From an uncultured Acidobacteriota bacterium (GTDB taxonomy: Bacteria > Acidobacteriota > Vicinamibacteria > Vicinamibacterales > UBA2999): a stretch of 41,416 nucleotides of DNA. Shown here one piece after another: positions 3,621 through 40,228 of the stretch. Each line of letters opens with the position of its first letter. The first letter of the stretch is position 1. The notes beneath the pieces were generated by a model that worked only from the letters and a program-made list of their open reading frames with translations, was not told the DNA's origin and did no database searches. The stretch covers positions 1 through 41,416 of the forward strand of contig CADEDM010000021.1 in NCBI GenBank assembly GCA_902826065.1. The letters run 5' to 3'. The translations under genes and the position numbers were made by a program.

Positions 3621-5620
3621 CGCGGGCGCCGGCGCAGCCCCTGCAGGCGCTTCTCGAGGCCAGCGCGATCGATGTCGACGAGGTCGCCCTTGAGCGCCAG
3701 CTCGAGCCGCTCCGCCGCTTCGTCGCGTTTGCCCAGCGCGGTCAGCACCTCGGCGAAATGCGACTGGATCACCGAACTGCCGCGCAGCGTCGTGGCGGCG
3801 CGGCGCAGCGGCGCTTCGGCATCGGCGGTGCGTCCGAGCTTGAAGAGCGCCCAGCCGCGACTGTCGAGGAACGCCGGATTGTCGGGTTCGGCCACCAGCG
3901 CACGGTCGACCAGCGTCAGAGCCTCCGGCAACTGCTGGCCGCGATTCGCCAGCATGTAGCCGAGGTAGTTGAGCGTGTTCGCGTTGAGCGGATCGCGCGT
4001 CAGGATGCCGCGCAGGGCGCGCTCCGCCTCGGCCGGCCGATCGGCGGCGTCGTAGGCGGCGCCGAGACGGAAGGCGATGGTGTCGTTGTCAGGCTGCGCG
4101 GAAGCCAGTGGCGTCAGCACGCCGATCGCGTCGACGTGTCGCTTCGCTTCCTGGTAGACGTCGGCGAGCGCGAACGCGCCGGGCACGGTGGTGCGCCGGG
4201 CCGCGACGGCGTTCTCGGCGTCGGTGACGCCCTGGGCGGCGCGGCCGCCGCGGATCGATGCCAGCGCTTCGATCCGGATGAGGTCGAGGTCGCCAGTGTT
4301 GCCGGTGTTCCTGGCCCGCGCCTCGCGGGCGGTGCGCGCCGCGTCGCTCGCACGGCCGGCTTGCAGCTGTGCCTGGGCGAGCGCCGCCGAGAACGGAGCG
4401 GCGTCGGGCCGCAACCGGCTGGCGCGTTCGAACGCGCGCACGGCGCCGTCGTGGTCACCGAGCTGCTGACGCGCCCCGCCGAGTTCCGCGAGCAGGCGCA
4501 CGGCATCGGCAGGCCCGAGCGCCTTGACGGCCGCGTCGTCGTCGATCGCGCCGAGTACGCTCACGACCTCCGCGTAGTCGTACTGCTCGCGATAGTGACC
4601 GGCGAGCAGCGACAGCGTCGGGACGTGCCGCGGCTCGATGGCCAGCGCCTGGTCCGCAGCTTTGCGCGCGGCGGCGGCGTCGCCCTTCTGGAACTGCGCG
4701 CGGGCCATGAGGAAATGGGCGACGGCGTCTTTCGGCGTTCGCGCGATCAGGTCCGTGAGCGTGGCGATCGCGCGTTCGGCGCCAGCCCCGTCGGGCAGGC
4801 TGAGCAGCGCGTTGGCGCGGCGCAGCGGCAACTCGCGTCCCGGCGTACGCAGCGCCTTCGCGCCCCGGTCGAAGGCCTCCGCCGCGTCGTCGAACTTCTG
4901 TTGCCGCTCGTAGACGTCGCCGAGCGCGATGTAGTAGCGCGGGTTGGCGGCGGCCGCGGCTTCCAGGACCGTCGCCGCCCGATCGAGCTGGCCGGTCGTG
5001 CGTAGCGCGTCGGCCAGCAGCGACACCGGCTCCCCGGCCGGGCCGGTTTGCGAGACGACGCGCTCGAGGATGGGAACGGCATCGGCGGCACGGTCGGCAC
5101 CGAGCAACTGCCGGGCGAGCGTGAGCTGCAGGCCGAGGTCGGTCGCCATCGATGGCGACGCCTGCACCTTCTGCAGGTGGTCGATGGCGGCCGTCCGCCA
5201 GGCCTTCTCGTTGCCGCCGCTGGGGCCGTCGACGACGCCATCGGCCCAGGCCGCGTTGACGAGGCCGAGGATGCGATGCGCCTCCTCGGACTCGGCGTCG
5301 AGGACCAGCGCGCGCTCGGCGGCCGTGACCGCCTCGTTGGCCTTGTTCTGGCGCGCGAAGAAACCGGCGAGTTCGGCCTGCAGCTCCGACGACGACGGGT
5401 CGAGGGCGACCGCACGCTCGAGCGCGGCCTGCGCGGCCTTGAGGTCTTCGCGGGACTCGGCGCGGCGCGCCAGCAGGAACTCGTACATCGCCGCGGCTGA
5501 CGCGGGCCGCGAGGTCGCAGCGGCCGCCTGCGCAGGCGCCGCGGTCTGCGCCGACGCCGGCGGCGCGGCCACGAGGACGAGCAGGGCGGCAACGGCGCGG
5601 CCGGGCGTCATGCGCAGCAT
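3617..5620 (-). CDS. Exported TPR-repeat protein
   Basis: 667-residue protein with a signal peptide (residues 1-24, cleavage near ASA-QT) followed by tandem tetratricopeptide repeats over most of its length. The repeats show the A-x3-Y/F...A...P spacing, for example in ALERAVALDPSSSELQAELA, AERALRGILTRDPLNANTLN and LVDRALVAEPDNPAFLDSRG. TPR arrays are protein-binding scaffolds; the periplasmic location suggests a role in envelope assembly, but no partner is shown. Start is ATG 5620; a second in-frame ATG at 5611 is possible. It is the first gene of a minus-strand unit and overlaps the LolB-like gene by 4 nt, matching the TPR-lolB-ispE order I recall from Pseudomonas. Confidence 0.85.
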   Translation of the reverse strand: MLRMTPGRAVAALLVLVAAPPASAQTAAPAQAAAATSRPASAAAMYEFLLARRAESREDLKAAQAALERAVALDPSSSELQAELAGFFARQNKANEAVTAAERALVLDAESEEAHRILGLVNAAWADGVVDGPSGGNEKAWRTAAIDHLQKVQASPSMATDLGLQLTLARQLLGADRAADAVPILERVVSQTGPAGEPVSLLADALRTTGQLDRAATVLEAAAAANPRYYIALGDVYERQQKFDDAAEAFDRGAKALRTPGRELPLRRANALLSLPDGAGAERAIATLTDLIARTPKDAVAHFLMARAQFQKGDAAAARKAADQALAIEPRHVPTLSLLAGHYREQYDYAEVVSVLGAIDDDAAVKALGPADAVRLLAELGGARQQLGDHDGAVRAFERASRLRPDAAPFSAALAQAQLQAGRASDAARTAREARARNTGNTGDLDLIRIEALASIRGGRAAQGVTDAENAVAARRTTVPGAFALADVYQEAKRHVDAIGVLTPLASAQPDNDTIAFRLGAAYDAADRPAEAERALRGILTRDPLNANTLNYLGYMLANRGQQLPEALTLVDRALVAEPDNPAFLDSRGWALFKLGRTADAEAPLRRAATTLRGSSVIQSHFAEVLTALGKRDEAAERLELALKGDLVDIDRAGLEKRLQGLRRRPR

Positions 5621-36795: not shown

Positions 36796-37950
36796 GTGAG
36801 ACAGGTTCGACTGCTGACGATGGCTGCGCTGCTCGCTGTGGCGGCGGTGGTGACGATCTCGCCGCTCGGCGCGCGCCAGGCGGCGCCCGGCGCGCCCACC
36901 AACCTCGTTATCGTGACCGGTCCGGGCGGTGGCGTCAGCCTGCAGTGGACGCACTCGACCGGCACGTTCACCCACTACATCATCGAAGCCGGCGGCGCGC
37001 CGGCGGCGCCCTTCCTCCGCATCGCCACCGACGCGTTCCGGAACGGCTCCGGGGCAACGCCCGGGTACTACGGCAAGATGCCCGATCTGGTCGCCGCCTT
37101 CTCGGCCGCGGGCATCGGCGCCGGTGACTTCTACGTGCGCATCCGCGGCGCCAACGGCGCCGCCGAGAGCGCGCCGAGCAACGAGGTGGTCGCGCACATC
37201 CGCGCCGGCTGCTATCAGCCTGGCACGCCCACCGACTTCACGGCGATCATGCGCGGCGACTTTGGCATGCTGCAGTGGAACCCCGGCGACGGCGGTGTGC
37301 CCACCACCTACCTGATCTACGCCAGCACGGTCCCGAATCTGCCCTCACCGCAGTTCGTGATTCCCGTGGCCACGCCCAACCTGACGGTGCCGATTCCGGT
37401 GGGGACCTGGTACGTGCGGATCGCGGCGAGCAATGGCTGCGGCACCAGCGCGCCGTCGGCGGAATACACGGTGACCTCGCCCTCCACGTCGCCGGCGCGC
37501 ACGGCCGATCCGGCGCCGGGTGCCCGCCTGCCGCAGCCCAACGTCGAGTACCTGGTGCGGGTGTTCGGCGCAGAAGCCGCGGCGCAAGGCCTTCTGCAGA
37601 CCTCGGTGTCGTGCCCGCAGCGTGCGGGTGGGCCGTTCTTCGATCCGATCGAAGCGCGGAAGACGATCCTGAACCCGTTCATCACCTACATCGTCGACCG
37701 GCTGCGCCTCTACGACACGCGCTTCGGCTACAACGCCAAGCCGACGCGGGCCTGGACGCCGGCGGTGATCGCCGGCGACGAGATCGCGTATCACCACGGG
37801 TCCGACGCCGCGGAAGGCTCGCCCAACGCCTACGCGGTGGACGTGCTGTTCGGCCACTGCACCGGAGCGATCGGCAACCCGCGCGAGGAAGTCGGCTATC
37901 GGGCCTTCTACGACGAGTTCGTGCGCTGGACCGGCGCCGGCCGCTTCTGA
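36796..37950 (+). CDS. Secreted FN3-repeat protein with unassigned C-terminal domain
   Basis: 384 residues; a signal peptide (1-27) is followed by two fibronectin-III-like modules (about 31-135 and 143-228). Each ends in a similar strand, YVRIRGANGAAESAPSNEV (113-131) and YVRIAASNGCGTSAPSAEY (206-224). Residues 244-384 form a domain I do not recognise, shared with the next gene: RLPQPN, Cys273, DTRFGYNAKPTR (307-318), AGDEI (326-330), AVDV...HC (347-355) and a terminal RWTGAGRF. GTG start at 36796 has an AGGAG site 6 nt upstream. It lies 27 nt after the pseudouridine synthase stop and 27 nt before the paralogue. Confidence 0.8.
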   Translation: MRQVRLLTMAALLAVAAVVTISPLGARQAAPGAPTNLVIVTGPGGGVSLQWTHSTGTFTHYIIEAGGAPAAPFLRIATDAFRNGSGATPGYYGKMPDLVAAFSAAGIGAGDFYVRIRGANGAAESAPSNEVVAHIRAGCYQPGTPTDFTAIMRGDFGMLQWNPGDGGVPTTYLIYASTVPNLPSPQFVIPVATPNLTVPIPVGTWYVRIAASNGCGTSAPSAEYTVTSPSTSPARTADPAPGARLPQPNVEYLVRVFGAEAAAQGLLQTSVSCPQRAGGPFFDPIEARKTILNPFITYIVDRLRLYDTRFGYNAKPTRAWTPAVIAGDEIAYHHGSDAAEGSPNAYAVDVLFGHCTGAIGNPREEVGYRAFYDEFVRWTGAGRF

Positions 37951-37977
37951 GCCGACGACCGACGAGGAGACGACCCG

Positions 37978-38907
37978 ATGCGCGTGTGGATGGGATTGGG
38001 CGTGGTGGCGCTCGGGGCCACAATTGCGGCCTGCAGCGGCCAGCCGGGCGGCGTGACGTCGCCGTCGGCGGCCGCCGGCAGCCAGGGCGCTGCGGCTGAC
38101 GGCTCGACGCTGAAGGTGCCGGCGCCGCGGTTGATCGGGCCGGTCGGCAACGCGACGGCGGCGGCGAATGCCACGTTGCTGGTGGAGCCGACGGTGGGAC
38201 GCTATGCCTCCATCACGGCGACCTCGGCACGCTACCAGGTCAGCGAGACGGCGGACTTCGCGGGCTTGACCGACGAAGGCAGCGCGCCGTCGGCGCCGAA
38301 CGTCCCGCTCATCAGCTACCGCATCCAGCGCGCACAACGCGCGGGCATCAAGGTGTTCTGGCGGGCCCGCGCCGAGTACGAGGGCGCGTTCGGTCCCTGG
38401 TCGGCGCCGGCCGAGTTCACGGTGGCCGGCTCGACGCCGCCACCGCCGCCGCCGCCGTCCGGCGGAGTCAATCGCACGCCGAACCCGCCGGCGGGTCAGC
38501 GACTGCCGCTGCCGAACATGGCCGCGCAGATCGCGCAATGGACGTCAGAGCGTCCCGACCTCTTCCCGTCGCAGCAGTGTCCGCTGGGCGTGAAGTACGT
38601 CAACAACCCGTGGCAGGACTACATCGTCGGCAGACTCCGCCAGGTCGACACGCGGTGGGGCTACAACGCCAAGCCCACGCGTGGACCGGTCGACAACGGC
38701 GGCCGTCCCGTGGTCGCCGCCGGCGACGAGATCCTCTACAACTGGGGCTCGAACGCCGACGAGGGCAACACCACCGAGGTCCACGCGGTGGACATCCTGA
38801 CGGCCCACTGCGGCGACAAGGAGCCCCGGCCGATTGCGCCGTCGCTCACGTGGCGGGTGTTCACGGGCGAAGAAGCCGTGCGCTGGACGGGAGCCGGGCG
38901 GTTCTGA
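37978..38907 (+). CDS. Lipoprotein with the same unassigned C-terminal domain
   Basis: 309 residues. The lipobox IAAC predicts lipidation at Cys19. An N-terminal beta-sandwich-like region (about 45-150) resembles FN3/Ig modules. A run of seven prolines (154-160) forms a hinge. Residues 175-309 match the C-terminus of the preceding protein: RLPLPN, Cys201, DTRWGYNAKPTR (224-235), AGDEI (248-252), AVDI...HC (270-278) and terminal RWTGAGRF. A GAGGAG ribosome site lies upstream of the ATG. Tandem arrangement suggests duplication of the C-terminal domain and a shared process. Confidence 0.8.
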   Translation: MRVWMGLGVVALGATIAACSGQPGGVTSPSAAAGSQGAAADGSTLKVPAPRLIGPVGNATAAANATLLVEPTVGRYASITATSARYQVSETADFAGLTDEGSAPSAPNVPLISYRIQRAQRAGIKVFWRARAEYEGAFGPWSAPAEFTVAGSTPPPPPPPSGGVNRTPNPPAGQRLPLPNMAAQIAQWTSERPDLFPSQQCPLGVKYVNNPWQDYIVGRLRQVDTRWGYNAKPTRGPVDNGGRPVVAAGDEILYNWGSNADEGNTTEVHAVDILTAHCGDKEPRPIAPSLTWRVFTGEEAVRWTGAGRF

Positions 38908-39919: not shown

Positions 39920-40228
39920 CTATTCCGCGTAGCTGTAGCCGCAGTTCTCACACACCCACATGCGGCCCTGCTTGTACATGTTGTAGGCGCACTGCGGACA
40001 GATGCGGTACTCGCGGCCGTCGGCGTCGGTGTAGGTCTTCTGGCTGCTGCCGCCACTCGACTTCTCGTCGTTGGCGAACGGGTCCTTCTTCTCTTCCTTC
40101 GGCTTCGGCTTCTGCTGGTCGTCCAGGTCCTGCGCCGCGAGCGGGGCCGCGACCGTGAGACCGATGGCGGCGGCGAACAGCGCCGACCCGCGCAAGAAGC
40201 TACGACGGTTCAGAGAATCTTCGACCAT
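39920..40228 (-). CDS. Tat-exported rubredoxin-like zinc-ribbon protein
   Basis: 102 residues. The N-terminus NRRSFLRG (7-14) with a hydrophobic segment is a twin-arginine signal, cleavage near LAAQ (about residue 33). A Lys/Glu/Ser-rich linker (37-65) follows. The C-terminal ribbon has Cys77-x2-Cys80 and Cys93-x2-Cys96 (CPQC and CENC), a rubredoxin/zinc-ribbon arrangement. Tat export of a folded metal-binding domain makes sense because the metal is loaded in the cytoplasm. Fe or Zn cannot be told. GGGAGG ribosome site is about 8-9 nt before the ATG. Function unknown. Confidence 0.8.
   Translation of the reverse strand: MVEDSLNRRSFLRGSALFAAAIGLTVAAPLAAQDLDDQQKPKPKEEKKDPFANDEKSSGGSSQKTYTDADGREYRICPQCAYNMYKQGRMWVCENCGYSYAE

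Follow-up and report, generated by a model that had tools for sequence, protein, structure and literature searches.

The window, by which we mean the whole 41,416-nucleotide stretch of DNA from an uncultured, soil-type Acidobacteriota bacterium analysed here, contains two adjacent genes whose products share a C-terminal domain, and the question is what this domain is and what it does. The genes are separated by 27 bases, each is preceded by a purine-rich Shine-Dalgarno-like stretch, and they were read as follows.

36796..37950, + strand: first gene, encoding a 384-residue exported protein (GTG start; predicted signal peptide, two FN3-like modules, C-terminal domain)
36796..36873, + strand: probable Sec signal peptide of the first protein, residues 1-26, read from the sequence
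37525..37947, + strand: C-terminal domain of the first protein, residues 244-384 (key residues C273, R309, N313, K315, D328, D349, H354 and C355)
37978..38907, + strand: second gene, encoding a 309-residue predicted lipoprotein (ATG start; lipobox, Ig/FN3-like (beta) module, proline hinge, C-terminal domain)
37978..38034, + strand: lipoprotein signal peptide of the second protein, up to the lipobox TIAAC (residues 15-19; Cys19, Ser at +2), read from the sequence
38437..38457, + strand: Pro7 hinge of the second protein, between the beta module and the C-terminal domain, read from the sequence
38500..38904, + strand: C-terminal domain of the second protein, residues 175-309 (key residues C201, R226, N230, K232, D250, D272, H277 and C278)

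As the initial annotation had proposed for these adjacent reading frames, the two C-terminal domains (~135 residues) align from end to end and are 42% identical (E 3e-27), while the N-termini differ; the motifs that it listed, from RLPxPN through RWTGAGRF, are all present in the same order in both proteins. The lipobox, beta module and hinge assigned to the second protein also hold, with TIAAC/Cys19 and seven consecutive prolines legible in the sequence, and the lipobox cysteine makes this protein a predicted lipoprotein, possibly of the outer membrane. For the first protein, the signal-peptide-like start was borne out, and the two FN3 modules are weakly backed: the match to Pfam fn3 (E 3e-5; 24.4 bits, just below the cut-off of 25) spans residues 33-65, part of one module. 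Export signals (signal peptide and lipobox) were judged by simple patterns here and in the family-wide counts below. Orthologues of the window genes occur in other genera at 46-70% protein identity (about 60% for first-gene orthologues at the same chromosomal site; 46-70% for those of the second gene), and because both are kept as proteins in other genera, both genes are real.

On sequence comparison, the shared domain is uncatalogued and belongs to no curated family. Searches of Pfam, NCBIfam and PHROGs with the full proteins and the isolated domains gave no above-cut-off profile match to it, in agreement with the earlier statement that no known family has this pattern. The isolated domain matched nothing among PDB sequences, and family profiles gave only short, low PDB matches, to NTF2-like, Wza and Hsp70 chains, which were judged to be chance; the literature yielded nothing on the domain itself. 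Nor is it peculiar to this genome, which carries four copies, two in the window and two in tandem genes on contig C152. Scanning genome contigs added nine further domain loci, mostly acidobacterial by title, and a systematic survey of cellular genomes, covering the Acidobacteriota, located the domain in 21 of 43 genomes of the same family, 44 of 162 genomes of the order and 17 of 396 genomes spread over the phylum, with only one of these 17 outside the order. Each domain-bearing genome has one to six copies, often adjacent.

Among 89 distinct domain reading frames, 41 have a signal-peptide-like start, 38 have a lipobox, six are N-truncated and four, all from phages, show neither pattern; thus 79 of the 85 cellular copies carry a predicted signal peptide or lipobox, the other six being the truncated ones. 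In all cellular proteins the domain lies at or very near the C-terminus, with at most 23 residues after it, and is preceded by varying modules (fn3, PhoD_N/Rha78A-type Ig, TIG, DUF5719 and He_PIG). The existence of the domain family and its genomic context are well supported. Two loci have other features of note. On contig C152 of the window genome (L101 6789-11763), the tandem domain genes adjoin a protein with matrixin (Peptidase_M10), fn3 and PKD matches. In genome G158 (L096 3727-13725), three very large exported proteins lie in a row, each ending in the domain, and the one tested has DUF5719 and TIG; a fourth, adjoining protein has DUF5719 and TIG modules and no domain.

The window locus is chromosomal and old, being flanked in other genera by yajQ, an rluB-like gene and an SDR gene. 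A prophage origin of the window copies was rejected, as the housekeeping neighbours (yajQ, rluB-like, SDR and fdhD) are conserved across genera. At this site both genes are present in the window genome, L006, L007 and G010, the first alone in G011 and two g24 genomes, and the second alone in L009 and L011. Since each is found alone at the same site, the two are not an obligate pair; tandem pairing is not consistent, and the secreted/anchored pair that the initial annotation had suggested is not supported as a rule. A polymorphic-toxin arrangement was also discarded, since these proteins vary at the N-terminus and keep a constant C-terminus, and no immunity-like partner was seen. Elsewhere in the window, the minus-strand gene at 39920-40228 encodes a 102-residue protein with a Tat-type signal (RRSFLRGSALFAAA) and, in its C-terminal part, a CxxC...CxxC motif of the zinc-ribbon or rubredoxin-like kind; L149 and L009 each have a similar Tat protein close to the SDR gene.

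A different cluster is common to the genomes of four relatives: two domain genes lie on either side of, or next to, the gene of an exported OmpA-barrel-like protein whose last residue is Phe.

L097 4220-8432: two-domain-gene and barrel cluster
L100 4482-9904: two-domain-gene and barrel cluster
L106 4654-14865: two-domain-gene and barrel cluster
L008 2801-7538: two-domain-gene and barrel cluster

Through this cluster the family is linked to the envelope and its outer membrane. The cluster neighbours are LPG_synthase_TM-type proteins and a methyltransferase, and the whole resembles an envelope module belonging to this order of Acidobacteria.

Turning to viruses, scans of viral contigs, each seeded by the previous one, led from three copies to L111 and then to about 20 distinct contigs; these are metagenomic, and some may be prophage fragments. 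Throughout the analysis, gene calls in GC-rich loci came from a simple script. Most phage copies are N-terminal in their proteins and are followed by a proline-rich hinge and often a coiled-coil-like tail, and several have a predicted signal peptide. Profile comparison with hhalign aligned a phage-only profile lacking the Cys-bearing copies (A9) with the window-type profile (A2) at E 1.9e-8 and with a wider cellular profile (A4) at E 2e-21, and a genome search with a phage-weighted profile recovered both window copies (E 9e-11 and 1e-5). Judged from these profiles, homology of the cellular and phage domains is sound. In an unrooted tree, 17 phage copies cluster and four Cys-bearing phage copies sit among the cellular ones. 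A tblastn search of annotated phages and plasmids gave no credible relative; the H6/MT835925 match was set aside as a tape-measure-like protein. PHROG 810 and PHROG 26120 were likewise dropped as phage-side families, being weak leads that do not match other members.

With 85 cellular and 21 phage domains aligned (n=106; numbering of L008:5424-5831), near-universal residues fall at aromatic 64, G65, N67, K69, D79, aromatic 83 and D100, giving a core of W/F-G-x-N-x-K followed by D79 and D100. C40, R63, H105 and C106 are typical of cellular copies. Both cysteines occur in 83 of the 85 cellular domains, the exceptions being one truncated copy and one with a shifted Cys; among phage domains five have both, 15 neither and one a single Cys. 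As the two cysteines are kept or lost together, the pair fits a C40-C106 disulfide needed outside the cytoplasm. The initial annotation had offered a disulfide or a metal site: the former is supported, and a metal site resting on His-Cys is unlikely, as these residues are lost in most phage copies. The same loss disfavours a catalytic Cys-His common to the whole family.

Structure prediction gave AlphaFold2 models of the second-window domain (38467-38904; pLDDT 82, pTM 0.80) and of a compact relative (pLDDT 86, pTM 0.84), both alpha/beta with two to three helices and then four strands. Structural comparison returned no Foldseek match in the PDB for either model and none among viral models for the first. 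In a structural second look (VIA) the best score was a weak Z of 3.8, where Z under 4 is not significant. The entries aligned over ~100 residues (Z 2.4-3.8) were menin, peptide:N-glycanase (Png1), arylamine N-acetyltransferase and Pasteurella toxin C3, all of which we take to belong to the papain/transglutaminase-like fold group. The modelled domain may resemble these proteins in weak overall topology, a likeness that serves as a lead only; it differs from them in scoring below significance and in that its family has no conserved Cys-His pair, Cys40 and His105 being lost in most phage copies.

Of 20 distinct viral contigs, 12 have a lysin gene at most three genes away from the domain gene or fused with it, and these lysins represent five or more families (GH24, GH108, SLT, SleB-like and M15).

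GH24 near the domain gene: L089, L130, L134
GH108 near the domain gene: L111, L115
Peptidase_M15_3 near the domain gene: L113
Hydrolase_2/SleB near the domain gene: L120, L121, L126
SLT near the domain gene: L137
M15_4 (weak match) near the domain gene: L138
Endolysin PHROG stretch fused to the domain: L117

With one lysin per ~50 genes, about 12% of random phage genes would be expected within three genes of one, a chance level that is an estimate since only the neighbourhood of the domain gene entered the test; against it, 12 of 20 is a large excess. Holin-like small membrane proteins were also noted by eye near phage domain genes. The remaining eight of the 20 contigs have no recognised lysin within three genes. 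In the L117 fusion (3627-5339), an M15-peptidase-like motif (SPHERGEAIDLT...WLHI; endolysin PHROG E 2e-4) is joined to a divergent domain copy. PHROG 3108, annotated 'unknown function', holds the lysin position ahead of the domain in L114 (296-802) and L140 (1151-2419), sharing one open frame with it in L140; its pattern ESRF...GxWQFE recalls lytic transglycosylases.

Recurrence in relatives' exported proteins and in phage genes beside cell-wall-cutting enzymes indicates that the domain probably targets the bacterial cell wall. We propose, with a rough probability of 0.45, that it is an envelope domain directed at peptidoglycan, which it more likely binds than cuts, and that it serves in phage lysis modules and on acidobacterial Ig/FN3 stalks. 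Phage modules already include a lysin, whose chemistry varies, so accessory binding is a more economical assumption than a second enzyme. In phages the domain would be an accessory part of the lysis module, made beside the endolysin and often with its own signal peptide; in Acidobacteria it would have come to cap exported proteins as their terminal head. The acidobacterial protein would be directed to the periplasm or outer membrane by its lipid anchor or signal peptide, the Ig/FN3-like modules and proline hinge would act as a spacer, and the domain would grip the wall, forming an outer-membrane-to-wall tether; the C40-C106 disulfide may stabilise this exported form. Peptidoglycan as the ligand, binding instead of cutting, and the tether geometry are parts that we infer. 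Several observations count against wall binding: eight of the 20 phage copies have no recognised lysin within three genes, the domain gene of L122 follows a phage-tail-repeat protein, and in L088 the domain forms the end of a protein encoded immediately downstream of a large, structural-looking one. Near-confinement to one order, among the Acidobacteriota genomes searched, is also odd for a general wall-binding module.

That the domain is instead itself a cell-wall enzyme (for example an amidase, endopeptidase or transferase), providing a second lytic or remodelling activity and, in Acidobacteria, trimming or modifying the envelope, seems to us unlikely. This idea draws on the near-invariance of N67, K69, D79 and D100 over very divergent sequences and is kept alive by that N-K-D-D set, which suits an enzyme equally well; the loop KRGNxxDxSxD is also the best-conserved part in most copies, and the four weak VIA alignments over ~100 residues all fall among papain/transglutaminase-like folds. 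Yet this loop is rebuilt in window-type copies, most phage copies lack the Cys and His required of such an enzyme, the structural scores are not significant and Foldseek found no match, and a lysin already stands beside the phage domain.

An adhesin or lectin-like head, recognising surface or environmental polysaccharides or a receptor on other cells from outward-facing FN3/Ig stalks and from phage virions, we consider rather improbable. It would account for the FN3, Ig, TIG and DUF5719 modules ahead of the domain, for the several paralogues per genome and for the L088 and L122 copies next to structural and tail genes, but most phage copies have lysin genes and not tail-fibre genes in their vicinity, and several bear a predicted signal peptide of their own, for which a virion protein would have no use.

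The reading as a C-terminal signal for sorting or assembly, in which the two window proteins form a secreted/anchored pair, is largely refuted and very improbable: although the domain sits at the extreme C-terminus in all cellular copies and RWTGAGRF ends both window genes, the tail varies, phage proteins carry the domain at either end, mostly N-terminally, with other tails, and either window gene can be present alone at this locus. The RWTGAGRF end, described at the outset as strict, is exact in nine of the 89 family copies, beside RWTGRGRF in eight, RWISRGRF in seven and many unlike endings, and it was because the tail is not strict across the family that the sorting idea was dropped; compared with signals of the LPXTG, PEP-CTERM or T9SS-CTD type, the domain has no strict terminal motif and is not confined to the C-terminus.

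Returning to the cell-wall-directed domain, a wider scenario can be put forward tentatively, at somewhat worse than even odds: an unrecognised wall-acting family in which a phage lysis form was taken up by Acidobacteria (or the reverse), gained a disulfide and expanded as envelope tethers or remodelling enzymes that use a new ligand, or an active site built on N-K-D-D. Two 'hypothetical' proteins become members of a defined, testable family joining acidobacterial envelope proteins and phage lysis modules. The envelope of Acidobacteria, which abound in soils, has received little study; a new module that binds or cuts the wall, if confirmed, would aid the reading of phage lysis cassettes, in which many small genes are unnamed.

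Several known systems offer points of comparison. Pal holds peptidoglycan through its OmpA-like C-terminal domain, and the window proteins resemble it in being a lipoprotein and an exported protein whose C-terminal domain is proposed to do the same; they differ in having other motifs and no Pfam OmpA match in that domain. Surface proteins with FN3/Ig stalks, including those with DUF5719 and TIG, have the same N-terminal module types, the shared C-terminal domain falling outside those families. The nearest published parallel in the literature consulted is a small non-endolysin domain encoded with a lysis cassette: the stand-alone SH3 protein in the Drexlerviridae lysis module of phage KanT1, proposed as an auxiliary component (PMC13164509). 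The two domains differ: SH3b is small and all-beta, whereas the window-type domain is alpha+beta by model and is also borne on chromosomally encoded exported bacterial proteins.
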